From the NCBI RefSeq assembly GCF_000258515.1, contig NZ_AJLF01000001.1:744001-808000 (forward strand): a DNA stretch of 64,000 bases, read 5' to 3'. The DNA comes from Thermococcus zilligii AN1 (lineage in GTDB: Archaea; Methanobacteriota_B; Thermococci; Thermococcales; Thermococcaceae). Positions 2,163-28,953 of this stretch are shown one piece after another (within the stretch, counting starts at the first letter, position 1; every line of letters starts with the position of its first letter). A program made the position numbers and the translations under genes. Under the pieces are notes generated by a model that saw only the letters and a program-made list of their open reading frames with translations, was not told the origin of the DNA and did not search any database.

Positions 2163-3332
2163 GTGGCGCTGAGCGACAGGCTCGAGATGGTCAACCCTTC
2201 TGAGATTAGAAAGCTCTTCGACCTGGCCGCCGGAATGAAGGATGTTATCTCACTCGGAATCGGTGAGCCGGATTTTGACACCCCGTCTCACATCAAGGAG
2301 TACGCGAAGGAGGCCCTTGATAAGGGCTATACCCATTACGGGCCAAACGCCGGCCTGCCAATGCTCCGCGAGGCCGTTGCCAGAAAGCTCAAAAATCAGA
2401 ACGGCATCGAAGCGGATCCAAAAACCGAGGTCATGATACTGACCGGTGCAAACCAGGCCTTTCTCATGGGGCTCGCCGCCTTCCTGAGGGACGGCGAGGA
2501 GGTTCTGATACCCTCCCCGATGTTCGTGAGCTACGCCCCGGCCGTTATTCTCGCCGGCGGAAAGCCCGTCGAAGTGCCGACCTACGAGGAGAACGAGTTC
2601 CGCCTCTCCGTTGGCGACCTTGAGAGGCACGTTACCGAGAAGACCCGCGCGCTCATCATAAACACGCCCAACAACCCAACTGGCTCCGTTCTCACGAAGA
2701 ATGACCTCGAGGAGATTGCAGATTTTGCGGTGGAGCATGACCTCATAGTTTTCAGCGACGAAGTTTACGAGCACTTCGTCTACGACGGCGTCAAGAACCA
2801 CAGCATAGCCTCGCTCGACGGGATGTTCGAGAGAACTATCACGGTCAACGGCTTCTCCAAGACCTTCGCAATGACCGGGTGGAGGTTAGGCTTCGTGGCG
2901 GCACCGGCTTGGGTCATCGAGAAGATGGTCCGCTTCCAGATGTACAACTCGACCTGCCCCACAACCTTCGCCCAGTACGCAGCAGCCAGAGCCCTCGACG
3001 ACCCGAGGAGCTGGGAGGCCGTCGAGGAGATGAGGAAGGAGTACGAGAGGAGGAGGAACCTCGTCTGGAAGAGGCTCAGCGAGATGGGCCTCCCAACGCT
3101 CAAGCCCAAGGGCGCCTTCTACATCTTCCCGCGCATCAGAGACACGGGCCTCACCGACAGGGAGTTCAGCGAGCTGATGCTGAAGGAGGCGAGGGTCGCC
3201 GTTGTTCCGGGCTCGGCCTTCGGAAAGGCCGGCGAGGGCTACATAAGGATAAGCTACGCAACAGCGTACGAGAAGCTCGAGGAGGCCATGGACAGGATGG
3301 AAAAGGTGCTGAAGGAGAGGAAACTCGTCTGA
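2163..3332 (+). CDS. Aromatic aminotransferase, class I PLP enzyme
   Basis: The product (389 residues from the GTG at 2163) is a fold-type I aminotransferase very close to the Pyrococcus aromatic aminotransferase: MALSDRLE start, GIGEPDFDTP, THYGPNAGLP, NTPNNPTGSVL, SDEVYEHF, and the PLP lysine in NGFSKTFAMTGWRLG (about residue 232). It should transfer the amino group of aromatic amino acids to 2-oxoglutarate in amino-acid fermentation, making 2-oxo acids for the ferredoxin oxidoreductases and then the ADP-forming synthetase encoded just upstream. Starts at GTG 2154 or ATG 2157 are possible, but the GGTGAT spacing and the family N-terminus favour 2163. A promoter-like GTTATAAAC is at about 2124. 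Confidence 0.9.
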   Translation: MALSDRLEMVNPSEIRKLFDLAAGMKDVISLGIGEPDFDTPSHIKEYAKEALDKGYTHYGPNAGLPMLREAVARKLKNQNGIEADPKTEVMILTGANQAFLMGLAAFLRDGEEVLIPSPMFVSYAPAVILAGGKPVEVPTYEENEFRLSVGDLERHVTEKTRALIINTPNNPTGSVLTKNDLEEIADFAVEHDLIVFSDEVYEHFVYDGVKNHSIASLDGMFERTITVNGFSKTFAMTGWRLGFVAAPAWVIEKMVRFQMYNSTCPTTFAQYAAARALDDPRSWEAVEEMRKEYERRRNLVWKRLSEMGLPTLKPKGAFYIFPRIRDTGLTDREFSELMLKEARVAVVPGSAFGKAGEGYIRISYATAYEKLEEAMDRMEKVLKERKLV

Positions 3333-3341
3333 TCCCTTTTC

Positions 3342-3731
3342 TCATTTTTCCAGGACATGCCTCTCAAGCACGTAGCAGTGGAAAGTCCCCTCGAGGACTT
3401 TCTCGCCTTTCCCGTCGAACACCTCCGCCCTGACGATTTTCTTTCTCCCGAGGTCCTCCTCCACTTTTGCCTCCGCTTTCAGTCTCTCACCGGCCTTCAC
3501 AGGCTTGAGGAACCTGACTTCGGCCTTTCCGAGGACGACGGTGGGCTCGTTGACGGCAAGCATGGCCGCATAATCTGCTAAGCCAAAGGTGAAGCCGCCG
3601 TGGACGAGGCCGTACTCGTCAACGGCCATCTCCCCGGTGGTAACGAGCTCGACTTCGGCCCTTCCCGGTTCAATCTTTAGCGGCTTTCCAACCAGCCTTT
3701 CCGAGGTCAGTCTGTGGGTCCTCTGCTCCAT
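3342..3731 (-). CDS. Hotdog-fold thioesterase (PaaI-like)
   Basis: A single hotdog domain of about 129 residues. The central helix region VDEYGLVHGGFTFGLADYAA carries the HGG motif typical of PaaI/4HBT-type acyl-CoA thioesterases, followed by the beta strands around VLGKAEVRFLKPVKAGE. Substrate cannot be read from the sequence. ATG 3731 has GGGGTGAG at good spacing, so I prefer it over GTG 3740. It lies 4 bases downstream of the radical SAM gene on the same strand and is probably cotranscribed; it ends 10 bases from the convergent aminotransferase gene across a T-rich spacer. Confidence 0.75.
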   Translation of the reverse strand: MEQRTHRLTSERLVGKPLKIEPGRAEVELVTTGEMAVDEYGLVHGGFTFGLADYAAMLAVNEPTVVLGKAEVRFLKPVKAGERLKAEAKVEEDLGRKKIVRAEVFDGKGEKVLEGTFHCYVLERHVLEK

Positions 3732-3743
3732 CTCGCTCACCCC

Positions 3744-5486
3744 TCACTCCTCTATGAGATCCTTTAAAACACCTCTCACCTCCGGGTCAACCATTTCGAG
3801 GAATGCCTCCCTGGAGAGCGGCCTTTTTGCCAGTATTTTAACGGCCCTCTTCTTCCCTATCCCCGGAATCAGCTGGAGAACCCTGGGGCTCTCGCGGTTC
3901 ACGTTTATAGGAACCGGGATTCCGGTTATGCTCCTGAAGCCGTGGTCCACTATCAAAACGTCGTAGAAGCGGTTCAGGGGGACTTCCTTGGGGATGCCGA
4001 CGATGAGAGGGTAGCTCCCCATCTGCCTCCCGTAGATGAGGCCATTGTCAAAGACCTCCGCGCGGACGTCCCTTAGAACCGTCCCCACCGGGATCAGGCG
4101 CCTGAGCATCGGCAGATCAATCTCGTGCCTTATCTTGTACTTGTAGTGCTGGATCAGGCGCTTGTGCTTCTCGGTCTTGACTTTGTCCCTCATGTGCCAG
4201 AGGGGTGTCCCGGGAAAGACGACTACCTGGCGGATGTTTATGCGCCTGACCATCAGGCCATCGTCGAGGAGCCTTTTGAGGAACTGGAAGGTCAGCTCGT
4301 AGCTCTCCTTCGTCTCGCCCGGGAGGCCGAAGACTATGTTTATCCCCGGCAAAAGCCAGGGCATGCCGTTGTAGCCCCTCCTTCCCCCGACCTCGTTGAG
4401 GATTTTAACGGCCTCGTAGGTTTCCTCGGCAGTGGCGTTCAGGTTGTTGAGCCTGGCAACCTTCGGGTCAGCGTTCTCAAGGCCGAAGGCGACAACGTTC
4501 CCGGGCGTTCCGTACTTGATTAAGGCCTTTGCAATCCTGACGCTCTCCTCGGGGTAGTTCGCTATTACAGCCGGATTGGCGTTGTCCACATGAAGGGTTT
4601 TAACGTCCGGTGCAACCGAGCGTATCCCCGCGAAGAGCCTCTCTAGGGCCTCCGGATTTGGAACAGGAACCCTGCCGTTCGGCTTTGCCATGTATGAAAA
4701 GATGCAGCTCTGCCTCCCGACCCTGAAGTGCCTCACTCCTATATCGTAGAGGGCCTTTACCTCGGCCACAACGTCTTCAACGGGCCTGTCCTCGACAGTT
4801 TTATACCGAGCGGGCTCAGTGCAGAAGGAGCAACCGCCTATACCCATCGCCTTGGGACAGCCGCGCTGGGTCTCGATCTCGACTATTACAAAGTCCGGAA
4901 AGTCCGGGAACTGCTTAACCACTTCCGCCCCAATAACCGCGTAATCCCTTAATTCGTTATAGCTCCTGAAGCGGAAGGGGTCGGCATCCTTAGGGTTGGT
5001 GAGAAAATCGAAGAGGAACGCCTCCAGGTCACCGTAAACGACGTGGTCAAACACGGAGCGGGCCAGCGAAAGCTCATGTGAGGTTATCTTTGTCCCGCCG
5101 GCGTGGGCAGAGCCCATAAAGGCCGGCCCGCCAAGGATTTTGACGCCTTTGAATGGCTTGATGAACCTGGCCACCTCCTCGACCTGGGACGGAACCGCGG
5201 AGAGGTACTTGCCCGGCGTGTGGAGGCCGCCGATGTAAACAATCACGTCGGCCTTTTCCAGTATCTCCCGGGTCTTCGGGAAGTTTGGGGTTTTGTTCTT
5301 CGTGGCGATTCCCTTCTCACCCTCAAAGGTGGCCCTCAGGTCGTCTATGGTGAGGTAAAAGACGCCTGCCTCTTTCCTGGCCTTCTTTATCGCCCCGTAG
5401 GCGTATCGCGGGTAAATTCCGAGGTAAGGCGGAACGCCGAGCCCCGCCGGCTCGTCGGTGTAGCCGTCTATGATGGCAACCATCAT
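3744..5486 (-). CDS. Radical SAM protein with C-terminal helix-hairpin-helix
   Basis: The 580-residue protein has an N-terminal domain resembling the B12-binding-like region of archaeal radical SAM proteins (IIDGYTDEPAGLGVPPYLG, later VYIGGLHTPG and GGPAFMGS). The radical SAM cluster site follows at RGCPKAMGIGGCSFC, an unusual CX8CX2C spacing, with the SAM strands AFGLENADP and GLPGETKESYE downstream. The tail holds a TRAM-like beta region and a helix-hairpin-helix (LIPGIGKKRAVKIL), which suggests a nucleic-acid substrate. The reaction is unknown. Start: ATG 5486 or 5483; no clear ribosome site, but a TATA-like TTTTTTAAG about 20 bases upstream suggests a leaderless message. It follows trmG10 by 80 bases. 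Confidence 0.75.
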   Translation of the reverse strand: MMVAIIDGYTDEPAGLGVPPYLGIYPRYAYGAIKKARKEAGVFYLTIDDLRATFEGEKGIATKNKTPNFPKTREILEKADVIVYIGGLHTPGKYLSAVPSQVEEVARFIKPFKGVKILGGPAFMGSAHAGGTKITSHELSLARSVFDHVVYGDLEAFLFDFLTNPKDADPFRFRSYNELRDYAVIGAEVVKQFPDFPDFVIVEIETQRGCPKAMGIGGCSFCTEPARYKTVEDRPVEDVVAEVKALYDIGVRHFRVGRQSCIFSYMAKPNGRVPVPNPEALERLFAGIRSVAPDVKTLHVDNANPAVIANYPEESVRIAKALIKYGTPGNVVAFGLENADPKVARLNNLNATAEETYEAVKILNEVGGRRGYNGMPWLLPGINIVFGLPGETKESYELTFQFLKRLLDDGLMVRRINIRQVVVFPGTPLWHMRDKVKTEKHKRLIQHYKYKIRHEIDLPMLRRLIPVGTVLRDVRAEVFDNGLIYGRQMGSYPLIVGIPKEVPLNRFYDVLIVDHGFRSITGIPVPINVNRESPRVLQLIPGIGKKRAVKILAKRPLSREAFLEMVDPEVRGVLKDLIEE

Positions 5487-5565
5487 GTGTCTGGCTTGGA
5501 GGGTGGGCTTAAAAAACTGAGGGGGCAAAGGTGTGAATTAACGGGGAGCTAAGCCGAACCTAAGC

Positions 5566-6561
5566 TCATTTTTCGAACACGTAGAAGTACCGCTCAAGGC
5601 TTTTGTGCACCCTCTGGTAGTACTTGCCCAAGAGCCTGAAGCCTGCCCTCCCGCCTTCGGCCTCCCCGTCGAAATCGGCTGGAAACGCTATGGCAAGCCT
5701 CCCCCCCTCTTTGAGCACGTTGTACATGCTCTCCAGGGCTTTTCTGTAAAGCTCGTCCCTCTTTCTACCGGCAAGTGTTGCTGAAGTGCCGTAGGGAGGA
5801 TCCGTGGCTATGGCTTCGAACTTCTTGTCCGGGAAAAGCTCTTCCAGTCTGGTAGCATCGCCCAGCCTGAGCTCGTAGTTATTTATCCCGTAATGCCTGA
5901 GGTTTATCTCCGCCCCCCGGACCATCTCCGGCTTTATGTCCACACCGTAGACCTTCAGACCCATTAAGCCGGCCTCGATTAGAATACCTCCTGCGCCCAT
6001 GAAGGGGTCGAGGATTTCCGCCTTTGCCCCGGTGAGGTTCACCAGCGCCCTGGAGAGCCTGGGGGGGAGTGAGATGGGCCTGAAGAAGGGCCTGCGGTGG
6101 GCTTTCTTTTTTTCAAAGTCCTTGGGGTCGAAGAAGTGGAGTCTTATCCCTGCGTAGAGCCTCCCGCCGCAGTAGACCCTGACCAGTGTCTCCGGCTTTG
6201 AGAGGTTCACTCTGAACCCCTGCGCATATATAACTGCCCCGAGCTTCCGCGGGAGGTCTAAGACGTCAAAGCGGCAGTTGGCCATGGTCTCGGTTTCGAC
6301 CTTGAAGGTTCCCCTGATCGGCCACTCCACCTTTCCAGCCTTTTCAAGGAGTTCTTCGACGGAATCCGCCTCAACGATAAGCTCCCCGTACTCATGTGCC
6401 AGGCCCAGCCTGTTGAGGTAAGGGAAGGCTTTTTCATCAGCGTCTATCTTCAGAAACAGGTAGTCCTGGCCAGTTATCTCTCCGCCCGCAAGCTCAAGCA
6501 TGGCCCTGACTTCGTCCCTGGCCATCTCCGGTATGTTCCCGAGGATTTCGACGTAGAGCAC
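5566..6561 (-). CDS. trmG10: tRNA (guanine-10-N2)-dimethyltransferase
   Basis: A 331-residue protein with an N-terminal THUMP domain (about residues 40-150) and a C-terminal Rossmann methyltransferase: SAM motif [15 protein letters not shown] near residue 186, and the catalytic NPPY-type motif as [20 protein letters not shown] near residue 255. This is the archaeal Trm-G10 enzyme, which makes N2-methyl and N2,N2-dimethyl guanosine at tRNA position 10. The start is GTG 6561 with GAGGTGG. It follows queE by 10 bases, so two tRNA modification genes share an operon. Confidence 0.92.
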
Positions 6562-6570
6562 CCGACCACC

Positions 6571-7332
6571 TCACAGCACGTTGAGATATTTATGAACCTG
6601 GAAGCTGAGCCCGACGTTCTTTCTGCCCATTATTTTGGCGGCCTCGCGGTAGAGCTCCATCAGCTGTCTCTGGGATATCTCAATCGGCTCCCTCGGCTGT
6701 ATAACGAGGGGCGCCAGGCCCTTCAGCAGTTCAGCGTACCAGCGGACGTTTTCGGGCTTCGTTTCGGAAGTGACGACGAGCTTTACGTATGTCTTCGCGC
6801 CGGCCTCCTTCAGAATCCTCGTGCTCTCAACTTCTCTGAGAACAAGGCTTTTCCAGTCCTCCGTTGCCCTGGCTGTCTCGTCTTTTATGTCAACGCTCGC
6901 GTAATCCGTGAGGTGGGCCACCTCTTTGATGAGCTCCGGGAGGCCGCCGTGGGTTTCGAGGAAGTTGTCAAAGCCGAGCTCCTTCATGCGCCCCATCATG
7001 GCCTTCAGCGGCTTCACCTGAAGCGTCGGCTCGCCGCCGGTGTAGCTTATCGAGTGTATATCACCGGTGTCAAGCCTTAGAACGGCATCGATGACTTCAT
7101 CGAGCGAAGCGGGGTTTTGCCTGTACTCGAACTTCCAGGTGAAGGGTTCCACTTCATAGCGCCAGCGCGAAACGCGGGAGGCATCTATGTATTCCTTTGA
7201 GTCGCACCATACGCAGCGAAGGTCGCAGCCGGCGAATCTGACAAAAATCTGCCTCCTGCCGAAGGCACTTCCCTCCACGCTCCCGCCCTCACCCTGCCAG
7301 CTACTGAAGACCTCAGCCATTACCACCTTCAT
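6571..7332 (-). CDS. queE: 7-carboxy-7-deazaguanine synthase (QueE)
   Basis: A short radical SAM enzyme (253 residues) with the cluster motif CDLRCVWC (CX3CX2C) near residues 35-42, the substrate and SAM signatures SWQGEGG, ISYTGGEPTLQ and ETHGGLPE, and the QueE-type ASVDIKDE segment. It converts 6-carboxy-tetrahydropterin to 7-carboxy-7-deazaguanine, the precursor of archaeosine at tRNA position 15. The start ATG 7332 has GAGGTGG. It lies between a small unknown gene and trmG10 with 10-base gaps, and is probably one operon with them. Confidence 0.92.
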   Translation of the reverse strand: MKVVMAEVFSSWQGEGGSVEGSAFGRRQIFVRFAGCDLRCVWCDSKEYIDASRVSRWRYEVEPFTWKFEYRQNPASLDEVIDAVLRLDTGDIHSISYTGGEPTLQVKPLKAMMGRMKELGFDNFLETHGGLPELIKEVAHLTDYASVDIKDETARATEDWKSLVLREVESTRILKEAGAKTYVKLVVTSETKPENVRWYAELLKGLAPLVIQPREPIEISQRQLMELYREAAKIMGRKNVGLSFQVHKYLNVL

Positions 7333-7341
7333 CCGACCACC

Positions 7342-7602
7342 TCACAGCTCTTCTACACTAAGCCCTTTTATCCTGTCGCTCACGAACCCTTCGAGTATTT
7401 CAACCCTTACGCTCCTTTTATCACCCGTCATGTCCGCCATGAGCTGAACCGCCCTCGCGTAGTCCCAGAGCCTCCTCTTCGCCCCGTCGGTAACTTCCCC
7501 GGCCATGACTATCAGCTCCCTCTCCTCCGGGTGGGAACCCATCCACTCCACGACTTTCCTCGCGTCTTCCTCGGTGAAGGTGCCCTTCTTCCTGAAGAGC
7601 AC
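7342..7602 (-). CDS. Small conserved-looking unknown protein (86 aa)
   Basis: I do not recognise the family. The 86-residue product is soluble and charged, with no membrane segment or metal motif: an N-terminal alpha region (EEDARKVVEWMGSHPEE), a short hydrophobic strand (ELIVMAGEV) and a helix (KRRLWDYARAVQLMADM). The start is GTG 7602 with a clear GGGGGTGG site. It sits 14 bases after the upstream unknown gene and 9 before queE, so it is likely cotranscribed with the tRNA modification genes. Confidence 0.7.
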   Translation of the reverse strand: MLFRKKGTFTEEDARKVVEWMGSHPEERELIVMAGEVTDGAKRRLWDYARAVQLMADMTGDKRSVRVEILEGFVSDRIKGLSVEEL

Positions 7603-7616
7603 TTTTCCACCCCCGC

Positions 7617-8117
7617 TTAAATGTACCGGAGAAGCAATTCAACGCTCCTCTCGAAGACCTCCCGATCTTCCCCCTCGAGGATACCGTCAAGGTACTGGAG
7701 GTTTACGAGGTTAAGGACGATGTAAGCGGTGTTCCTGTCCAGACCGAGGTCGTAGGCGTCGTAAACAACGATCTCCTTTCCCAGGGCGTCGTTTATCAGG
7801 TCAACGAAGTGGGCTATGTCCTCAACGCTCAGCTCGTCCCACTTGCTTTCCATTTCATCAAAATACTCCTCAAGAACGCGGATCGTCTCCAGGTCAAGCT
7901 CCAGCGTGCCTTCAACAAAGGGAAACTCCCCAACGCGGAACACTTTCAGCCCCACATTGTCCCTGATCCCTATCTGATCCCACAGCACGATCCCCTCAAC
8001 GGGGTTGTGGCCGTATCTGCTCGCAAGGTATGAAAAGCCCTCGAGGGCTGAATCGATTACCTCAATGAACTCCTCCTCATCCTGAAAGCGGATTATCTTG
8101 CTCACTGTTCTCGCCAT
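7617..8117 (-). CDS. Unknown acidic protein (166 aa), first gene of the queE operon
   Basis: No family recognised. The protein is acidic and alpha-helical with no membrane segment. ATG 8117 is preferred over 8144: a TATA element (CTTATAACC, about 8145-8153 on the minus strand) lies about 30 bases upstream of it, and GCAGAGG precedes it, whereas 8144 would overlap the TATA box. It heads a minus-strand run of five or six closely spaced genes that includes queE and trmG10. Confidence 0.65.
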   Translation of the reverse strand: MARTVSKIIRFQDEEEFIEVIDSALEGFSYLASRYGHNPVEGIVLWDQIGIRDNVGLKVFRVGEFPFVEGTLELDLETIRVLEEYFDEMESKWDELSVEDIAHFVDLINDALGKEIVVYDAYDLGLDRNTAYIVLNLVNLQYLDGILEGEDREVFERSVELLLRYI

Positions 8118-8202
8118 CCTCTGCACCGTTAAAGGTTGGGCCAAGGGTTATAAGGCTTTGCGGGAAATCATCAACGCCCGACGAGTAGCGGGTTGCGATG
8201 AC

Positions 8203-8263
8203 GTCGGGACCCCCAGGGGGCCGACATCCCCAAAGGCCCCCAAACTTTGACAAAACAAAGTTT
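8203..8263. repeat. Two inverted repeats upstream of topA
   Basis: The first (8203-8225) pairs GTCGG with CCGAC and, inside, CCCC with GGGG, leaving a two-base GA bulge. The second (8242-8249 with 8256-8263) is a perfect 8-base repeat AAACTTTG / CAAAGTTT around ACAAAA. Both lie between the divergent unknown gene and the topA TATA box (TTTTTATAACC, about 8274). They could be operators or part of a short RNA; the sequence does not decide. Confidence 0.45.
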
Positions 8264-8312
8264 CCCCCGCAGGATTTTTATAACCTCCCCCCTAATCGCT
8301 CAAGGTGCCACC

Positions 8313-11300
8313 ATGGTAACGCTCATCATCGCCGAGAAGCCCAACGTTGCCAGAAAGATCGCCCACGCCTTGGCAGAAGGCAAACCCGTGAGAAAATCGA
8401 TCGGGAAGGTGAGCTATTACGAGTTCACCCGCGACGGGAAGAGGATCATCGTCGCCCCAGCGGTTGGACATCTCTTCTCCCTTGCACCCAGAGATAAAAC
8501 CTACGGTTACCCGGTCTTTGACATCGAGTGGGTTCCCGTTTACGTCGCCGAGAAGGGAAAGGGCTATGCGAAGGACTACATAAGGGCCCTCGCGGTCCTG
8601 GCAAAGCAGGCTGACGAGTTCATCGTTGCGTGTGACTACGACACGGAGGGAGAGGTGATAGGTTACACCGCCCTCAAATACGCCTGCGGCGTCGACCCTT
8701 CAAAGGCAAAGCGCATGAAGTTCTCTGCTCTGACAAAGAAGGACATCCTCAACGCCTGGTACAACCTCGAACCGACGATAAACTTCGGCATGGCCGATGC
8801 GGGAATAGCGCGCCACGTTCTTGACTGGTACTGGGGCGTCAACCTTTCGAGGGCTTTAAGCTCGGCCATAAAACGCGCCAGCGGCAAGTGGATGGTTCTC
8901 TCGACGGGAAGGGTCCAGGGGCCGACGCTGAAGTTTCTTGTTGAGAGGGAGAAGGAGATTCAGAGCTTCACGCCGACCCCCTACGGGGTCATCAAAATGC
9001 TCCTCGAGAAGAACGGGGAACAGCACACCGCGAGCTATGAGAAGGAGCGCATCCTTGACGAGGAGGAAGCCAGGAAAATCGTCGAGGAGGCAAAGAAGGG
9101 GCCTGCGTTCGTTGAGAAGGTTGAAGTGAAGCAGCAGCAGAGAAACCCGCCGGTCCCCTTTGACCTCGGAACCCTCCAGAGGGAGGCCTACTCGGCGTTC
9201 GGCTATTCCCCGAAGAAGACTCTGGACATTGCGCAGAAGCTGTACGAAAAGGGATACTGTCTCCACCCTGATTCTCTCATACCTACCCCGGAGGGGATAA
9301 AGAAAATCAAAGAGCTACCGAAGGAAGGCGAGGTATTTGCCCTTGACTTTGACCTCAAACTGTCGAGGGCGAGGTACAGGCTCCTTGAGAGGGACGCGGA
9401 TGAGCCTATGTATAAGGTTGTCCTTGGCGATAGAACTGAGCTCTACCTCACCGGGGATCATCCGGTTCTGGTTTATCGGGATGATCGGCTGATATTCGTG
9501 CCCGCCGGGGAGCTCAGGGATGATGACCAGGTGGTGTTTTTCATAAACCGTGGGGAGCTTCGGAGCCTACGTAAAGCTCCACGGCTCCTTGAGTTCATCC
9601 TCAGAAACGCCACGTCAATGAAAGACTACATTCTTTACGAACCCCCTTTTGGCGGCATTTTGAGGGAAAGAATCAAGCAAGCCGGGTTAAAGGCGGAAAT
9701 CCTGCGGAGGTTCAAAATCAAGGAGCCAACTTACTACAAATACCTCAGGGGCAAAATGCCAGTTCCGATGGTGAAGTTCCTCGTTGAGAGAGGCGTTATC
9801 CCCATGGAAGAGCTGAAGGGTATCTTCCTTGGGTTTTCCTATGGCACATCTTTGTCCCCAGTAAAATTCGAACTTGGCGAGGAGTTTTGGTACCTATATG
9901 GGTTCGTCCTTGGAGATGGCCACTTGGAGAAAAAGGGCACCATAACGATATCCGCAAAAGAACGGGAGGAGGAAACTCTAAGGGCAATCCGAGAAGTTGC
10001 CGATGCACTTGGTGTCCCCATCTCATACGACAGGAAATATCGGGTAATAACCCTTCGCAGTAAGTCCTTAACCCGGCTCTTCGAGCTCCTTGGATGTCCC
10101 TACGGCAATAAGACTGAGGTTTTCAGAATTCCTGGTTTAGTGATGTCAAAACCCGAGTGGATGGCCTCGTTCCTTGCCGGTTACTACGACGCCGATGCCC
10201 ATATTGGCACGAAACCGACTGGAAGTAAAAAGTCAATGTCTCCACAGATTGTCCTGACGTCCAAGAACCGGCAGGCGATATACACCGTCAAACTCATGTG
10301 GCAACTCCTTGGAGTCGGTACATACCTCTGGGAGAAAAAGGAGGGGCAGGGCAATTTTGTGGCCTACGAGCTTAAGGTCTACTCGCGCGATGCGCTCCGG
10401 TTTTATGAGATTATGCGGAAATACCTGAGGGTAAAGAGACAGGACCTTGAGAATGTTCGGGAGGTTGCAATCAGAAAAAGGAAGTCCTACTCTCACCATT
10501 ACAGCGTTCTCAGGGTTAGAAACTGGAGAGGGAAGTTGAAGACCGATAGGGCTTTCTGGAAAAAGTTCGATATGTCCAATCAGACGGCCCCTGGGAGCGG
10601 GATAAGTCTCGACAAGCTGGAGCGGATTGGGGACTACCTGATCAACGAAGACCTCCGCAGGATTGCGACTGGGGACGTATACATCCTTCCAATAAAGGAA
10701 ATCAAAAAGTTCCACTATCGCGGTAAAGTCTACGACCTTGTCGTCGATGGGTATCACAACTTCATAGCTAATGGCGTCGTTGTCCATAACTGTTCATACC
10801 CGAGAACTTCATCCCAGAAGCTCCCCAAGAACCTCAACTTCAGGGGCATAATCCAGAACCTCGCGAAGCTTCCCGAGTACAAGCCCTTCGCCCACGAGCT
10901 TTTGGGCAGGGGGGAACTCAAGCCCGTCGAGGGCAAAAAGGAAGACCCCGCGCATCCTGCCATCTACCCGACGGGCGAGTTACCCAAGCCAGAAGAGCTG
11001 ACGAAGGACGAGCAAAACCTGTATGATCTGATAGTAAGGCGCTTCCTCGCCCTCTTCATGGAGCCAGCGGTTAGGGAGACGATGAAAGTTGTCATAAACT
11101 CCAACTCCCACCGCTTCATCCTGAGCGGTGCGAGGACACTGAAGGAGGGCTGGCTGAGGGTTTACGGGAAATACGTAGAGTTCGAGGAGGTTGTTCTTCC
11201 TCCCTTCAAAGAGGGCGAGCCCGTAAACGTTCTCCAGATAAAGCGCGAGAAGAAAATGACGAAGCCTCCGGCGCGCTATTCTCCAGCGGCGGTGATAAAG

Positions 11301-22245: not shown

Positions 22246-22761
22246 TCACCTGACCTCCTTCAACTTCCCCTCCCTCTTCTCTATCACCCTCGCCATTATG
22301 AAGAGCAGGTCGCTGAGCCTGTTGAGGTAAACGAGGACGTTGCTTCCGAGGCCGTAGTCGAGGAGGAGCTTTGCAACCTTTCTCTCGGCCCTCCGCGCTA
22401 TGGTCCTGCACACGTCAAGCTTTGCGCTCGCCACCGTTGAGCCGGGCAGAACGAACCCTCCCAGCTGAACCTCCCCCTCGTACTTATGGATAAGCCCTTC
22501 GAGCCACCTGACCTCTTCCTCCCCGATCTTCGCGTACTTCCCCTTGCTGGCGAGCTCCGCCATAATGTCGTAGAGCTGGACCTGTATCCTCTCCAGTATC
22601 CCTGCCATCTCCCCTGGCAGGTAGTGCTTGGCCTCCCCTAAAAAGCTGTCGAGCTCGTCTATCGTCCCGTTGGCTTCCATTATCGGGGAGTACTTCACGA
22701 CGCGGTCGCCGGTGAAAAGGCCGGTCAAACCCCTGTCCCCGGTTTTCGTGGTGATGGACAT
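22246..22761 (-). CDS. Cob(I)alamin adenosyltransferase (PduO type)
   Basis: The 171-residue helical protein begins MSITTKTGDRGLTGLFTGDRV, the ATP-binding start of PduO-type adenosyltransferases, followed by NGTIDELDSFLGEAKH and the conserved LPGSTVASAKLDVCRTIARRAER and YLNRLSDLLFIMAR. It attaches the adenosyl group of ATP to cobalt to make coenzyme B12. Two starts are plausible: ATG 22761 (GGGGGTGATC) and ATG 22776 (GGAGGAGG); the family N-terminus favours 22761. Confidence 0.9.
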   Translation of the reverse strand: MSITTKTGDRGLTGLFTGDRVVKYSPIMEANGTIDELDSFLGEAKHYLPGEMAGILERIQVQLYDIMAELASKGKYAKIGEEEVRWLEGLIHKYEGEVQLGGFVLPGSTVASAKLDVCRTIARRAERKVAKLLLDYGLGSNVLVYLNRLSDLLFIMARVIEKREGKLKEVR

Positions 22762-22854
22762 TTTGATCACCCCCATGTTTCCTCCTCCGGCCTTTATTGG
22801 CTTTTGGGGGAGGGTTTTTATACCCGGCGATCCCCTCTCAGGCCGGTGAGGAGG

Positions 22855-23148
22855 GTGGAGATAAAGGAGTTCCAGGAAATGATCAAAGAGATTTACCTCC
22901 ACAAGGACTCCAGGCGGGGTGTTGAGAAGACCTTCCTCTGGTTCGTTGAGGAGGTCGGGGAACTGAGCGAGGCGATAAGGAAGCACGACCGTGAAGCCAT
23001 GGAGGAGGAATTTGCAGACGTCTTAGCCTGGCTTGCCAGCCTGGCGAATCTCCTCGGGATAAACCTGGAGGAGGCGGCGAAGAGGAAGTACCCCAGTGTC
23101 TGCCCCTACTGCGGGAAGAACCCCTGCGAATGCGAGGAGAAGTTTTAG
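22855..23148 (+). CDS. MazG-like nucleotide pyrophosphohydrolase
   Basis: The 97-residue helical protein has the MazG metal-site signature: WFVEEVGELSEAI (EEVGE) followed by EEEFADVLAWLASLA (EXXD). Such enzymes hydrolyse non-canonical or excess nucleoside triphosphates. The tail CPYCGKNPCECEE adds four cysteines that could bind zinc. I placed the start at GTG 22855 because the family begins at this residue; GTG 22846 is possible and lies about 27 bases after a TATA box, as in a leaderless message. The divergent partner is the cobalamin adenosyltransferase. Confidence 0.82.
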   Translation: MEIKEFQEMIKEIYLHKDSRRGVEKTFLWFVEEVGELSEAIRKHDREAMEEEFADVLAWLASLANLLGINLEEAAKRKYPSVCPYCGKNPCECEEKF

Positions 23149-23421
23149 AGCCCGGGATTTACCTCAAAGCCCGAGCTCTTCCTTGCCCTCTTCCCGGGCG
23201 TTCTATCCTCATGAAGTCTTCAAGCTCTCTCCTATCTTGTCCATTTTTTTGCATAAACGGGTTATTCTTAAGCAAAGAAGGTAATCTCTTCCATTCAATT
23301 ACCCAATCCAAACTGAAAGAGGTTTCAACCAGTTGACAATCTCGTGTATAAAAAACTATTTAAACTGGAAGCCTAAATAATTTTGCCCCGTATACTGGGG
23401 CAACGAGTAGGGGGAATGCAG
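23149..23421. other. Non-coding gap with hairpins and promoter
   Basis: I see no gene here. GCCCGGG at about 23151 and CCCGGGC at about 23196 could pair after the MazG gene. A TATA-like GTATAAAAAAC is at about 23346. Directly before the next gene, TTGCCCC (23383-23389) and GGGGCAA (23397-23403) form a 7-base inverted repeat around GTATACT, which could be an operator or a leader hairpin. The DNA is AT-richer than the flanking genes. Confidence 0.5.
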
Positions 23422-23744
23422 ATGCGAAAGTTAAAAACCCTATTCGTGACTTTGTTTCTCCTCTCTGGAATGATAGAGACAGTGAGTGCAAGTGGAGAAA
23501 ACTGGGTAATGATGCAAAATACGGGATTATTAAGGATCAGCTAACTTTAACTGGAGCTCTGAACTGGGCAAACTCCCACGACACTGGCTACAGTGATTGG
23601 ATAAACTTTGACGCTAAGTATACAGTGGAAGCGGGCTACACCTATATTGGCCCCGGTATGGACATTCCAGTGTACGTACCCGTTACAACAGACAATGCAA
23701 TAATGCTCCCAATAGTAAATGTTAGGGTTGAGCTAGTACCATAA
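23422..23744 (+). pseudogene. Small secreted protein, frameshifted
   Basis: ATG 23422 (GGGGG site) opens a signal peptide, MRKLKTLFVTLFLLSGMIE, with cleavage likely after VSA. The frame stops after 40 codons. The next frame continues as a credible mature protein (NDAKYGIIKDQLTLTGALNW to VNVRVELVP, stop 23742-23744). Adding one G to the GGG at 23504-23506 joins them into a smooth 107-residue protein. No family recognised; its place at the head of an ABC-type locus suggests a secreted component or cargo. Whether the missing G is a mutation, a phase switch or a sequencing error cannot be told here. Confidence 0.55.
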
Positions 23745-23753
23745 GGAGGGGTC

Positions 23754-24682
23754 ATGGTGGATGCAAAGAAAGGTGCTTCCCTCTTTATCCTTTTCCTTTT
23801 AGCTTCAGCTGTAGGTTACATAGCCTTCAACGTGATTAAACCTGAACCGGATCACCAGGTTAGCCAATCACCTCCCGACGTCTACCACTCCCCCAGTCCT
23901 TCCAAATACGCAGAGCTGTTTGGCGATATAATCAGAAATTACTCAACCTATTACTTGATGGAAAGTGCCCTCTACGGGGAGTACCTCTGGGACGGGTTGA
24001 ATCAGGAGACATACAACTGCACCTTAACTAAGAATGCCACCATCTTAAAGGAAAGAGTTAATAACCTCGTCTCCATGTATAAAAACCTCTCAAAGCGTGA
24101 AGTCTCAGAGAGAAGCGTAGTGGGGGTTCTTCTCCTGGGGATCTTGGATTTGGTATTTCCTCCCTCTCCTCAGAGGGGGAGGAGCAGTTGCGGCGGGACT
24201 TGGGTGAGATATGCATACTCGAGGGTAGGTTAACGAACTTTGATTCTTTTAAGAAGAGGGCAGTGGAGGTTTACGGTGAGCCCTCCTTCTCCTATGAAAA
24301 GCTTTCAAACCTCAGCTCGCGCCTTGAGAGGGAGGTAAGCAGGACTTATGGGATACCCTTCAGCGGTGAATGGCCCGTGGAAACCCGCTTCGCACTCCAG
24401 CATTTTGTTTACATATTGTCCCAAAACAGCACTCTTTTGGATTCATTCCTGAACGGTTACGACCCCGAAAAAAGCTACAACCTGCTGAAGACGCTCCTCG
24501 GAGAACTGGACGAAAACCCGTACGCTAAGGCGCTGTTTAAGCCATCTATAGTCTATCTTTCCGAGTTATGGCGTGAGGAATACGTTTTGTCACAGAACAA
24601 GGCCGCTGTTGATGACCACTACCTCAGGGTTTTCTGGGCCTGGTATCAGCTCGTAAAGCCCGAGCAGTTCATTGGGCGATAG
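23754..24682 (+). pseudogene. Membrane-anchored extracellular protein, frameshifted
   Basis: ATG 23754 (AAGGAGGGG site) starts a protein with one N-terminal membrane helix (ASLFILFLLASAVGYIAF) and an extracytoplasmic helical domain with several NXS/T sites. The first frame ends at 24233 and the second resumes by 24188. Restoring one G to the GGGGG run at 24122-24126 gives a continuous product of about 309 residues through SERSVVGGSSPGDLGFG to LVKPEQFIGR. No family recognised. It is followed 2 bases later by the four-helix protein, so it belongs to the same unit as the permease and ATPase. Confidence 0.6.
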
Positions 24683-24684
24683 CG

Positions 24685-25059
24685 ATGGACAGATGGATAA
24701 AGCTACTGTTCCTGGTCTTCTTTCTCCTGGTTTTAATAGGGGACTTAATATCCCTCATAGGCTTTTACCTTATGGGACCGGCCCAAAGGAAGCTTATTTT
24801 GAACGTCCTGCCCCCAGTGTACTGGGGCCTTAAAGCCCTTGAAATTCTGGTTTCGGGTCTTTACATCTTTGGTATCATAAATAGCTTCAACAGGAAGAGC
24901 ATGGCTGGTTTGGCCTTTATATTCACACTCCTTAGACTGCTTTCGGTTGGAGTCTTAAGCGGCGTTGAGACGGTTATAACGTGGAGGCTCCTGGTTCAGC
25001 ACTCCGTTTTCTACGTGGCGGGTATCATAACAGCGTACCACCTGAAGGAGGGGATGTAA
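24685..25059 (+). CDS. Four-helix membrane protein of the ABC-type locus (unknown)
   Basis: A 124-residue protein with four membrane helices (LLFLVFFLLVLIGDLISLIG, LKALEILVSGLYIFGII, AGLAFIFTLLRLLSVGVL, SVFYVAGIITAY) and very short loops. No family recognised. It begins 2 bases after the frameshifted anchored protein and its stop codon directly abuts the permease start, so a structural role with the permease is likely. Confidence 0.7.
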   Translation: MDRWIKLLFLVFFLLVLIGDLISLIGFYLMGPAQRKLILNVLPPVYWGLKALEILVSGLYIFGIINSFNRKSMAGLAFIFTLLRLLSVGVLSGVETVITWRLLVQHSVFYVAGIITAYHLKEGM

Positions 25060-27120
25060 ATGCTGGAGCACTTGATCAAAATCATGGTCAGGAGGATGAG
25101 CTTCTTCCTTCTCATATTGATGTCCTTTACGGTCTCCCTCATGATCTTCGGCATCGTGGGGCAAGTGGGTCAACTCGTTGATGAGAACGTGGAGTACGCG
25201 TTTACCCACTACCGCCCGCAGGCCGTTTACTCATTGGACTTTGATTTTGAGAGGAACCTCACTCCCTCCGCTGTGCATTTTGAGGCCGTGAATGTTATGG
25301 AAGCACTCGAAAAAGAACTCACAAAGGAGAACCTGAGCACCGGTTTTCTCGTGGCCCTTCCCGTTGCTTACATAAAACCCCTCCAGATTAAAGGCCATAC
25401 TGTGTACTTCCAGGCATATTTCTTCAGGGATATCGGGGACGTTGAAGAGTTTGGATTCAGGTTTGACCCGCCGGGAAATAACTTTATCCTCCTGAGCTAC
25501 AACCTGTCAGGGGATTTAACTCCCGAGACTGTCTCAGAATATTTCTTTGGTGAGAACGCCCCCCTTGTTAAAGCATACGGGGTTTTTATGGAATACCCCC
25601 TCGGCCACTTATCCAACGTTGAGTACGTTCAAGTCGCGGTACCTCTTACAAATAAAACGCTTGCCGAATACTTCAGATGGTTAAACCGTGATCTCTTGGA
25701 CTCATCCGGGCTTAAGGTGAACCTGTACGTGGCACTTAATATCAAAAACCCCGTCAGAGACCCCTACGTAATCGAGAGCTTCGTAACCTCAAAACTGCCC
25801 CGGAGTATGGTTGCAGGTGTCACCAATTTCTATACTATGAAATACGGAAACGAGGGGGTTAAATTTTACATCATGAACAGCATTAACGGTTCCCATTTGG
25901 TGTACTTCAACGGAACCTGGATCGACCCAAAACGTGACGAGGAATACCTGATAAGGGTAATCAACCGGAACCAAGGCATTAGATTGGTTTCGTTTGGCGT
26001 CTCCCTAAGCCAGGCCGACATAGTTGACCTGGTAAAGGACGCAGGAACGCAAACTGTAAGGTTCTTTGGGAAGTACGCAGGGCTTCTTGTTGTTATCTAC
26101 CTCCCCTTCTTCCTCTTAGTTTTGTACTCCTCCTCTACGGTGTTCAGAGACCTGCGCAATGACCTTGAGGTTCTTGAGCTTAGAGGGATACAGAGGAACG
26201 TGAAAGTTTTCCAGGAGTTCTTTATTTTCCTGATGGCCGGATTGGCCTCAACCGCTGCCTACACTTTTCTCATCGTACTTTCAGACTACTCCTTATCCCC
26301 TATCACATTCGTTGGCGTTGTGGGGCTCGTCTATCTGGCCATGCTGGTAGGCAGAAGGGGGGACACCTGGAGATTGGGCAGGGGCTCCATGCTTTCTTTA
26401 GCTGCATTCCTTGCGGCCTTTCTTATACTCGGTTACATGAGGGTGAACGGGCTGGTTCTCCTCAGCAGGGGATACGAGGCTTTAATGTTGCTTTTCTCTC
26501 TCCTCATGGCCTTAATCCCAATCCTGGGGATTTTCGTAGGCTACCTCTTTCACAGGGCATGCGGCAATCTAATACGGCTTTTGGAACGGATTTTCGACGT
26601 GAGGTACTACCTGAGGGCTCTGGAGGGATATTCGTACGTTCTAACTTTCTCGGTTTATTCCTTGGGCCTGTACCTACTTCCTAAGATTGTATCCATCGAC
26701 AGGGTGGTTAACGCCATCCTTGAGAATAATGGCTACAGTGCCATGGTTGAGTACAGTGACGTAACCTCACTCGGTCTTTTGGCTGCCTACTTGGACAAGT
26801 TAAGCCGGGGCTTTGGTGTCATGGGATTACTCGCAATCTCCCTGATTTTCATCGTCGCTTTGAGGAAATACCAGTCCGTAAGGGGATACTCAGCCCTCAG
26901 GGGAGGCGACTTAACTGCTGTCCGGAAAAGCTTTCTCAAGTTCCTGTTTTTAAAAATCGGCCTGGTAACGGTTATGTCTATAGCGGTAGCACTGTTCCTG
27001 GCGGTTTTCCTCGATGCATACATCGGCCTCACGTACACTTCAGGAAAACTCCTGGTTGAAAGTGGAAAGCTCGCCCTTAAATTCCTCTTTAAACCACCTC
27101 ACGTGCTCATATGGGGGTGA
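25060..27120 (+). CDS. FtsX-like ABC permease (686 aa)
   Basis: A long permease: one N-terminal helix (SFFLLILMSFTVSLMIFGIV), about 300 residues of extracytoplasmic domain, then some eight to ten more helices from about residue 345 onward. The single helix, large outer domain and later helix bundle recall FtsX/MacB permeases, which move no substrate across the bilayer but act mechanically on envelope lipids or proteins; this one has extra helices. The ATPase gene follows with overlap. Several NXS/T sites in the outer domain could be glycosylated. Confidence 0.7.
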   Translation: MLEHLIKIMVRRMSFFLLILMSFTVSLMIFGIVGQVGQLVDENVEYAFTHYRPQAVYSLDFDFERNLTPSAVHFEAVNVMEALEKELTKENLSTGFLVALPVAYIKPLQIKGHTVYFQAYFFRDIGDVEEFGFRFDPPGNNFILLSYNLSGDLTPETVSEYFFGENAPLVKAYGVFMEYPLGHLSNVEYVQVAVPLTNKTLAEYFRWLNRDLLDSSGLKVNLYVALNIKNPVRDPYVIESFVTSKLPRSMVAGVTNFYTMKYGNEGVKFYIMNSINGSHLVYFNGTWIDPKRDEEYLIRVINRNQGIRLVSFGVSLSQADIVDLVKDAGTQTVRFFGKYAGLLVVIYLPFFLLVLYSSSTVFRDLRNDLEVLELRGIQRNVKVFQEFFIFLMAGLASTAAYTFLIVLSDYSLSPITFVGVVGLVYLAMLVGRRGDTWRLGRGSMLSLAAFLAAFLILGYMRVNGLVLLSRGYEALMLLFSLLMALIPILGIFVGYLFHRACGNLIRLLERIFDVRYYLRALEGYSYVLTFSVYSLGLYLLPKIVSIDRVVNAILENNGYSAMVEYSDVTSLGLLAAYLDKLSRGFGVMGLLAISLIFIVALRKYQSVRGYSALRGGDLTAVRKSFLKFLFLKIGLVTVMSIAVALFLAVFLDAYIGLTYTSGKLLVESGKLALKFLFKPPHVLIWG

Positions 27121-27125
27121 TCAAA

Positions 27126-27806
27126 GTGGGTGTCGTCGAGTTTGAGGATGTCTTTGTGAAGTACGAAACCTACACGGGAAGCGTTTTGGCTTTAAGGGGA
27201 ATAACTTTCTCCCTCGGGGCGGGGGAGACGATCCTTGTAGTGGGCCCATCTGGAAGCGGCAAAACCACGCTTCTCAGGGTTATCCTCGGCCTCGTTCAAC
27301 CCATGCACGGAACCGTCAGGGTTTTCGGAATGGAGCCGCGGGACGGGAAGACAGGACTCGAAATCAGAAGGCGGATAGGTTATCTGACCCAGGAGGGGAA
27401 GATGATACCCGAACTCACGGTGTGGGAGAACATAATATTCTACGCAAAGGGAAGGGGCAGGAAGGTAGACGAGAACCGGGTCAGGGAGCTCGCGAGGGAG
27501 TTAAACGTTGAAGCCGTGCTCAACAAGCATCCAAACCAGCTCAGCGGAGGGGAGCTCAAAAGAGCTGAGCTTCTGATGGTTTTATCGGATGAACCCGAGC
27601 TCCTCCTCCTTGACGAGCCGACGTCGATGCTTGATGCCGAGAACTCCAAGGTGGTCATAGACCTCCTTTCCACATTCAAAGGCAGTGTCCCCATGATAGT
27701 GACATCCCACGACCCGAGGCTGGTTGAAGTCAGCGATAGGATTTTGGAGGTTACCGGTGGGGTGGTAAGAAAACCTGAAGGGACTGCCCGGGGCGGCAAC
27801 ACCTAA
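27126..27806 (+). CDS. ABC transporter ATPase of the unknown locus
   Basis: A 226-residue nucleotide-binding domain with all motifs: Walker A GPSGSGKTT, Q-loop YLTQEG, signature LSGGELKR, Walker B LLLLDEPTS and switch His in VTSHDPR. It is of the LolD/MacB/FtsE type by length and motif pattern. I prefer GTG 27126 (GGGGGTGATCAAA directly before it) over ATG 27111, which would overlap the permease. It powers the adjacent FtsX-like permease. A T-rich stretch follows the stop before the convergent DPM synthase gene. Confidence 0.88.
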   Translation: MGVVEFEDVFVKYETYTGSVLALRGITFSLGAGETILVVGPSGSGKTTLLRVILGLVQPMHGTVRVFGMEPRDGKTGLEIRRRIGYLTQEGKMIPELTVWENIIFYAKGRGRKVDENRVRELARELNVEAVLNKHPNQLSGGELKRAELLMVLSDEPELLLLDEPTSMLDAENSKVVIDLLSTFKGSVPMIVTSHDPRLVEVSDRILEVTGGVVRKPEGTARGGNT

Positions 27807-27820
27807 TTTTTTCTCCCTTA
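27807..27820. terminator. T-rich convergent terminator
   Basis: ATTTTTTCTCCCTT lies between the convergent ABC ATPase and DPM synthase genes and would act for the plus strand. Confidence 0.45.
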
Positions 27821-28915
27821 TTACCCCCACGTAACGCTCCTGCTGAAGAGGAAGCGGACGATAAAGGACGCGCCTATGCCAATAAGATTTGCCACGAGAT
27901 AGTCTATGCCGAGGTAAACGAGCGGGGCGTAAATGAGCCATTGAACTACCGCACCCATCAGTGATGCAATGTGAAAGGTAAAGAGCCTCTTCCAGAGGGG
28001 GGCGGTTCTCAAGTCCCTGAAAGTCCAGAGGTCGTTCAGGAAGAAGTTGTTGAGGATTGCGAGCTCCGTGGCGGGGATATTGGCAACATACTCGTTCATC
28101 CCCAGCCTGGAGACGAAGAACCACAGAAAGCCCTCGTTGACGGCAATGCCCACGGTTCCCACGATGCTGAACTTCACAAGCCTGTCTATCTCGCCCTCCC
28201 ACTTCATGAGCCTGTAAACGTGCTTGAGGTAGTTTACCATGGTTTTTCTGCTCAGCTTGCTCTCTCCGGCCTTTCTAAGGCCGAATGTGAAGGGGACTTC
28301 GACGACCCTGCTGTAGCGCCCCTTTATGAGGATCTCCATCAGGATTTTGAAGCCTATCGGGTTTAGCTCGGCCCCTTCCACGACCTCCCGCCTGAGGGCG
28401 AAAAACCCGCTTACCGGATCCTTAACGTGCCTTATTTTAGGGAGGGCAACGCGGCCTATCATTATGGCCCCCCTGGAGATGAGCTTTCTGTACCAGTACC
28501 AGTTCTCAACAGCTCCCCCAGGAACATAGCGACTCGCTATCGCTATGTCGGCGCCTTTCTCAATTTCCCTCACCAGCTCGGGGATCTTCTCCGGGGGATG
28601 CTGTAGGTCGGCGTCCATTACAACGAAAACGTCCCCCTCTGCCTCTTTAAAGCCCCTGATAACGGCCGAGGATAGGCCTTTCTCATCCGTCCTCCTGATG
28701 ACCTTAACAGGGTAACCCCGTGTTCTGCCGAGCTCTTCGGCGTGTTCCCATGTTCTGTCCGGTGAATCGTCATCGACGATTATGATTTCGTAGTCGTAGC
28801 CCGCTTTCCCCATGGTGTTTGAAATACGCTCGAAGAGTTCCTCAAGGTTTTCCCTTTCGTTATAGGTTGGGATTATTATTGAAACTTTCGGCTTGTTTGA
28901 TCCGCCGCTGTCCAT
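27821..28915 (-). CDS. Dolichyl-phosphate mannose synthase with GtrA-type membrane domain
   Basis: The 364-residue protein has an N-terminal GT-A glycosyltransferase family 2 domain: VSIIIPTYNERENLEEL, the VDDDSPD motif, the metal-binding DADLQHPPEKIPEL and the acceptor-loop SGFFALRREVV. From about residue 230 a GtrA-like domain adds four membrane helices. This matches the Pyrococcus DPM synthase, which moves mannose from GDP-mannose to dolichyl phosphate for N-glycosylation. ATG 28915 has GGGAGGG; an upstream ATG (28936) would fall before the expected transcription start. Confidence 0.9.
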   Translation of the reverse strand: MDSGGSNKPKVSIIIPTYNERENLEELFERISNTMGKAGYDYEIIIVDDDSPDRTWEHAEELGRTRGYPVKVIRRTDEKGLSSAVIRGFKEAEGDVFVVMDADLQHPPEKIPELVREIEKGADIAIASRYVPGGAVENWYWYRKLISRGAIMIGRVALPKIRHVKDPVSGFFALRREVVEGAELNPIGFKILMEILIKGRYSRVVEVPFTFGLRKAGESKLSRKTMVNYLKHVYRLMKWEGEIDRLVKFSIVGTVGIAVNEGFLWFFVSRLGMNEYVANIPATELAILNNFFLNDLWTFRDLRTAPLWKRLFTFHIASLMGAVVQWLIYAPLVYLGIDYLVANLIGIGASFIVRFLFSRSVTWG

Positions 28916-28953
28916 TTTGAACCCTCCCGAGAACATAGGGAAATTCCCGCAAA

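Follow-up and report, generated by a model that had tools for sequence, protein, structure and literature searches.

An inserted block of five genes

Positions 23,149 to 27,806 of the window (the whole 64,000-nucleotide stretch of Thermococcus zilligii AN1 analyzed here, which is contig 1 (C1) positions 744,001-808,000 of a 1.76 Mb genome, G000) are filled by co-directed plus-strand genes, namely the remnants of one gene (g1), a broken second gene (g2) and three intact genes (g3, g4 and g5) that abut or overlap their neighbors (Table 1). An unrecognized five-gene locus encoding an ATP-binding cassette (ABC) system had been predicted here; its tight order stands for g3, g4 and g5, but g1 and g2 are broken in the window. 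In the sister genome G020, the closest relative, the MazG-like and DPM-synthase genes that border the block are adjacent, with 20-odd bases between them and no cassette insert. Because these flanking genes stand side by side there, the block is a discrete insertion, with borders close to those originally predicted. The names of neighboring genes (MazG-like, DPM synthase and others) are our own reading of their sequences, as opposed to the result of family searches.

In agreement with the original prediction, the cassette is richer in AT than its surroundings, with a GC content of 0.47-0.50 per kb (compared with 0.53-0.59 around it) and a GC content at third codon positions of 0.46-0.67 (compared with 0.61-0.78), and this AT-richness is common to its relatives. 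Low GC by itself is insufficient evidence of a foreign origin, which is better backed by the empty site, by the contrast in synonymous divergence and by a mosaic relative (see below). Judged from its sequence, the window carries a copy, now in decay, of a Thermococcus cassette that undergoes horizontal exchange.

In relatives, g1 is a single protein of 280-294 aa with a Sec signal peptide, while the two parts present in the window lie in different frames and lack, by DNA alignment, ~530 nt of the g1 of a related cassette (L019) between them; the ‘secreted small protein’ that had been proposed is therefore the deletion remnant of a protein of ~283 aa. A sequencing error cannot account for a deletion of this size. 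The stretch of g1 that is best conserved (FDAVLSLAGSPIGASWIFDVV) is also its most hydrophobic one after the signal peptide, as would be expected of a membrane-active segment, and it falls within the portion deleted from the window. An inverted repeat lies close to where transcription of g1 is expected to begin, and both of its arms are altered in matching fashion in L019 (TTGCCTC/GAGGC).

The second gene, a single open reading frame (ORF) of 293-316 aa in relatives, is preceded in the window by a strong ribosome-binding site and is broken between 24139 and 24140 by a 1-nt deletion relative to L018 and L019, which sits at a short G run and for which a sequencing error is possible. The gene of the anchored extracellular protein of the original prediction is frameshifted, with the N-terminal anchor and the first part of the extracellular domain encoded ahead of the lesion. 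The four-helix protein (g3) and the LolD/MacB-type ATPase (g5) were recognized correctly. As Cys (lipobox) is absent from the N-terminal regions of both g1 and g2, a Lol-type lipoprotein route is unlikely for either protein. PHROG matches of g1 were at chance level only, and an AlphaFold2 (AF2) model of g1 from 3 sequences was discarded (predicted local distance difference test (pLDDT) score 28).

Table 1. Positions of the features discussed (numbered by the window unless another locus is named).
Feature	Position	Strand	Remarks
Whole inserted block	23149..27820		between MazG-like gene (ends 23148) and DPM-synthase gene (27821-28936, - strand)
BRE/TATA-like AAAACTATTTAAACT	23352..23366	+	candidate archaeal promoter element; conserved 5' of g1 in window, L019 and L020
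Inverted repeat TTGCCCC-N7-GGGGCAA	23383..23403	+	candidate operator or leader hairpin
g1 remnant, 5' part	23422..23544	+	Sec signal peptide (79% identical to L019 g1), then out of frame
g1 remnant, 3' part	~23520-23744	+	last ~75 residues, other frame; 79% identical to L019 g1 C-terminus
g2, 5' part	23754..24139	+	N-terminal membrane anchor (no lipobox Cys), first part of extracellular domain
g2, 3' part	24140..24682	+	shifted by the 1-nt deletion
g3	24685..25059	+	124-aa four-helix (four-transmembrane) protein, intact; no family match
g4 permease	25060..27120	+	686 aa, intact
g5 ATPase	27111..27806	+	231 aa, FtsE/LolD/MacB type, intact; overlaps g4
Site A			beside DPM synthase (site of the window cassette)
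Site B			beside sugar-phosphate nucleotidyltransferase, downstream of feoB
Site C			between ferritin-like gene and PRC-barrel gene
Site D			site of L004
812-830-aa permease pairs	L081 (G030:C1:1001000-1016000) 2694-5808		each permease with its own ATPase
	L063 6927-9374
	L064 7611-10097
	L065 3920-6400

Relatives of the cassette and their exchange

The locus is more than a chance arrangement, because the identical five genes in identical order are intact in three cassettes, L004 (a second cassette of G000), L019 (G068) and L020 (G021), so that the predicted grouping recurs across genomes. L004, which lies ~110 kb upstream of the window cassette, is complete and divergent, with a g1 of 294 aa, a g2 in one ORF of 303 aa (from its likely start), a g3 of 125 aa, a g4 of 685 aa (37% identical to that of the window) and a g5 of 223 aa (72% identical). 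Of 94 Thermococcales genomes, 9 carry the permease gene, all of them Thermococcus, and no other genome of the 115 searched from the phylum has it; g2 is present in 7 genomes and a full g1 in 3. A pattern scan of 84,980 species, for which two short patterns were used, returned Thermococcus only, and the named permease carriers are Thermococcus metagenome-assembled genomes. No carrier element was found, as plasmid and viral collections contained no relatives of g4 or g2.

Other copies are incomplete to varying degrees. L018 (G056) has lost g1 save for its last residues (VVVELKP), L022 (G019) and L023 (G033) keep g2, g4 and g5, and L021 (G020) keeps just g4 and g5. The second copy of G068 (L024) has g2, a frameshifted g3 (about 6425-6820), g4 and g5, and L025 (G042) has g2, g3, a frame-broken g4 (about 6494-8568) and g5; decay, including these two frameshifts, is common in the family. 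L051 (G021) consists of g2 alone, and L026 (G051) is a partial cassette cut by the contig end. In total, g1 is reduced or missing in seven copies (the window, L018, L021, L022, L023, L024 and L025), in all of which the ATPase is present and in all but L025 of which the permease is intact. The ratio of non-synonymous to synonymous substitution rates (dN/dS) is 0.16-0.27 for g4 and about 0.10 for g5, also in copies without g1.

The cassettes occupy four chromosomal sites. No insert occupies site A in G019, G021, G033 and G042, where the DPM gene abuts pyrG, or in G020 (see above). In G000 itself, pyrG lies away from DPM synthase (C1:613433-615018), and cobalamin adenosyltransferase-like and MazG-like genes (window 22246-23148) stand there in its place, so that the site has been rearranged on that side. 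Site B of G000 carries crumbs of a third g4, most like that of L024 (L052, G000:C1:1000000-1010000, at 4225-4610). Two large proteins are encoded next to them, on the downstream side, and one or both seem to bear a signal sequence. One of these, a secreted 386-aa protein (L052:4628-5788), was considered as a diverged g1 and rejected, as it has no profile similarity to g1 and belongs to a family found in 45 of the 94 genomes and unlinked to the cassette.

Evidence for horizontal exchange comes from synonymous divergence that is far lower in the cassette than in its flanks, as well as from one mosaic cassette. Between L018 and L019, synonymous differences amount to 10% in each of g2 and g4 and rise to 22% in the ATPase gene, whereas the flanking genes on either side reach 59-71%. 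Between the window and L019 they are 34-42% in g2, g4 and g5 and 50% in the short g3 (five flanking genes, 62-74%), and between L022 and L023 they are 18-19% in g2 and g4 and 28% in g5 (flanks, 31-66%). This contrast overturns simple vertical inheritance, which the continuous alignment of the window with L019 through the flanks would otherwise allow.

The mosaic, L020, is of the site-A type over a segment that begins shortly before g1 and ends where g5 begins (71% identity at the DNA level), whereas g5 and both flanks are those of site C (81-88%). Its permease is 65-68% identical to the site-A type and 36% to that of site C, and its ATPase is of the site-C type (90%). In approximately unbiased (AU) tests, placement of the L020 g4 in the site-C clade was rejected (p 2.4e-5) and placement of its g5 in the A clade was weakly rejected (p 0.04). 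Thus a foreign g1-g4 segment stands beside a resident ATPase gene and, whatever the function of the cassette, this is a clear case of module exchange within an operon, in which specificity genes are replaced and the motor gene is resident. On the pyrG tree the carriers are scattered among non-carriers and a single carrier clade was rejected (p 6e-7), although this is the tree of one gene, which could itself have moved. The empty site, the patchy carriers, the low synonymous divergence and the mosaic together uphold the view, taken originally, of an accessory, possibly horizontally acquired locus.

The permease-ATPase pair and its putative function

The g4 permease comprises a first transmembrane (TM) segment, an extracellular domain of ~295 aa and about nine more TM segments, with a second loop of just ~35 aa. 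Hydropathy in four subtypes and an AF2 model (pLDDT 69) place the extracellular domain at about residues 40-335, between TM1 and TM2, and the model contains beta-alpha-beta units at both ends of this domain, with a helix block after. In Foldseek searches with this model, the top four matches were MacB structures (E 3e-4 to 2e-3, probability 0.97-0.99, with TM-scores of 0.17-0.21 at a model pLDDT of 69), the best of them being 5gko (E 3.3e-4), and LolC was fifth (E 0.056). The FtsX-like permease of the original prediction is intact and may have the LolD/MacB-type architecture to which these matches point, but none of nine permeases matched the Pfam FtsX permease domain (PF02687). The g5 ATPase matches models for FtsE (E 1.5e-38), LolD (8e-33) and PF00005 (3.3e-32), all below the NCBIfam equivalog cut-offs.

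As had been noted, the locus matches no known system: g1-g4 have no Pfam or NCBIfam family and no PHROG match above chance and no match in PADLOC, PDB profile searches with alignments of g1, g2 and g4 gave nothing significant, and g4 falls into none of the known families of transporters. Since g1-g4 are without a named family and the predicted fold of g4 is weakly MacB-like, the best class for the g4-g5 pair would be the type VII ‘mechanotransmission’ ABC systems, which do work outside the membrane instead of carrying a substrate across it, and among which MacB-type transporters act on extracytoplasmic substrates (PMC5985334). With a LolD/MacB-type architecture as modeled, mechanotransmission would be the expected mode of action.

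The cassette shares with MacB, LolCDE and FtsEX an FtsE/LolD-like ATPase and the arrangement of TM1, a large extracellular domain and more TM helices, and its permease may resemble MacB and LolC in fold, but it differs in having an unfused ATPase and a permease of about ten TM segments that lacks a Pfam FtsX match. No HlyD/MacA-type adaptor of a MacAB tripartite pump was detected (g2 matches no Pfam family), and neither g1 nor g2 qualifies as the lipobox-bearing client of a LolCDE system. Like the conflict modules described from Thermococcales, VARTIG among them (PMC8416519, PMC4158269), the cassette is Thermococcales-specific, variable and exchanged and encodes secreted and membrane proteins; the Ig-domain protein of VARTIG is, however, not in the cassette, and VARTIG itself has no ABC transporter as judged by a text search.

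An organizational parallel is provided by the lactococcin-972 operon, in which the gene of a secreted bacteriocin precedes two genes for a putative immunity ABC transporter (PMC4055356) and for which TIGR01653, TIGR01654, TIGR03608 and plasmid pBL1 (NC_004955) served as references. In both, a Sec-type secreted protein, a permease and a LolD-type ATPase follow in order (L004, L019 and L020, in which g2 and g3 intervene), and the permease, of ~650-690 aa, has TM1, an extracellular domain and several further TM segments. The secreted protein of the cassette is, in contrast, ~283 rather than 66 aa long, and the cassette is archaeal. Membership in the lactococcin-972 group is rejected by sequence, as the cassette has no match to the bacteriocin families of this group, its permease does not match TIGR01654 or PF07242, and g5 scores 117.7 bits against TIGR03608, below the cut-off of 254.85.

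Three observations, namely that a Sec-exported protein leads the operon, that exchange replaces the specificity genes en bloc but leaves the ATPase in place, and that g1 is lost repeatedly while g4 and g5 remain constrained, would all be explained if the cassette were a bacteriocin-like module, working like the lactococcin-972 operon without being a member of its group; this is the reading that we tentatively prefer, with its probability put at somewhat less than even. In such a module, g1 would leave the cell by the Sec route and act on the membranes or envelopes of related archaea, and g4 and g5, with g2 and g3 as putative adaptors, would hydrolyze ATP to drive movements of the extracellular domain and, on the outer side, strip g1 off or expel it, thereby protecting the bearer. 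Where g1 is lost, the ABC pair would be kept as orphan immunity, a state toward which the window copy may be heading; the repeated loss of g1 with retention of g4-g5 resembles a weapon whose antidote outlives it. Both the toxic activity and the protection are putative.

Several findings weigh against this reading. No toxin family matching g1 was found in the PDB profile search or the family searches, and g1 is the most conserved gene between L019 and L020 (81%, versus 67-69% for the other genes), unlike a fast-diversifying weapon. The TM-scores of the MacB matches to g4 are low, g2 and g3 are extra genes without counterpart in the lactococcin-972 operon, and the cassette permease shows no similarity to the lactococcin-972 permease in a single-sequence comparison of low power. 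The loss of g1 with retained ABC genes also fits a transporter whose true substrate is not g1.

Instead, the ABC complex (g4-g5 with g2-g3) might release, fold or display g1, which would then be a useful extracellular protein and no weapon, moved across the membrane by Sec and detached by the type VII machine as by LolCDE or MacB with their clients. The fixed gene order with g1 first, the Sec signal peptide and good conservation of g1, and the extracytoplasmic clients that type VII systems normally handle (PMC5985334) all suit this proposal, a serious rival that is nevertheless rather unlikely to be right, given that g4-g5 stay constrained where g1 is lost and that g1 and g2 lack a lipobox Cys.

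For the window copy only, and compatibly with any reading of the family, there is a modest chance that the cassette as a whole is dead and no longer serves any function, as the deleted and frame-broken g1, the frameshifted g2 and the second cassette remnant at site B of G000 suggest; set against this are the full-length frames of g3, g4 and g5 and dN/dS values of 0.10-0.27 relative to other copies, although the lesions may be too recent for a loss of function to be visible in these.

Less probable still, though likewise a serious rival, is a detoxification or sensing transporter, like BceAB or VraFG, in which the ABC pair would remove foreign membrane-active compounds, g2 and g3 would be adaptors and g1 an accessory scavenger or sensor. 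In its favor, g4-g5 can stand alone (G020), a resistance trait would account for the patchy distribution and the exchange, and the topology, in which a single large extracellular domain accompanies about ten TM segments, looks like that of two fused MacB halves, as in BceB. This domain, however, lies between TM1 and TM2 rather than between TM7 and TM8 as in BceAB (PMC5985334), and no two-component system (histidine kinase or response regulator) was found among the genes of the window flanks and of the related loci analyzed.

FtsEX-like mechanotransmission acting on the S-layer, as originally envisaged, or on cell division is very improbable despite the MacB/LolC-like fold match of g4 and FtsE as the best ATPase model, since a permease present in just 9 of 94 genomes does not serve a core function of the envelope, neither S-layer nor division genes stand beside the cassette, and exchange and decay are ill-suited to a housekeeping role.

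The bacteriocin reading can be extended to the family as a whole, which could, with rather more doubt than attaches to the module itself, constitute a new archaeal family of protein bacteriocins with a dedicated MacB-like immunity machine. Homologous exchange would then replace g1-g4 but leave the ATPase in place, and producers would coexist with strains that lack the cassette or its g1. The literature searched contained no bacteriocin from Thermococcus. What is novel are the protein families and the mode of exchange, while the machinery is a variant of MacB-like ABC systems. If the bacteriocin reading were right, it would offer a testable antagonism between hyperthermophilic archaea in a genetically tractable genus and would add a new role to those of archaeal type VII ABC machines.

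A second ABC family in the same genomes

The nearest relatives of g5 seen in five genomes searched are the ATPases paired with Thermococcus permeases of 812-830 aa (L063, L064, L065 and L081). The topology of these permeases is similar to that of g4, but there is no significant similarity between them (hhalign probability 0.4%), they have no significant Pfam match, and they usually form two-gene units only. One such pair, unrelated to the cassette and with a broken ATPase (L081, G030), occupies the DPM/pyrG site of the cassette (site A). Among the 94 Thermococcales genomes, this 815-aa ABC family has 10 carriers and the cassette 9, and eight genomes carry both (G000, G019, G021, G033, G042, G051, G056 and G068; hypergeometric p 4e-9); on the pyrG tree, independent pairs differ in the same way in 5 of 5 cases, which are too few to reach 0.05. 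Beside one of the 815-aa ABC pairs (L064, G000:C3:83000-96000), at 2597-6874, several small secreted proteins are encoded one after another together with a signal-peptidase-like gene, in an arrangement that resembles an archaeal surface-fiber locus.

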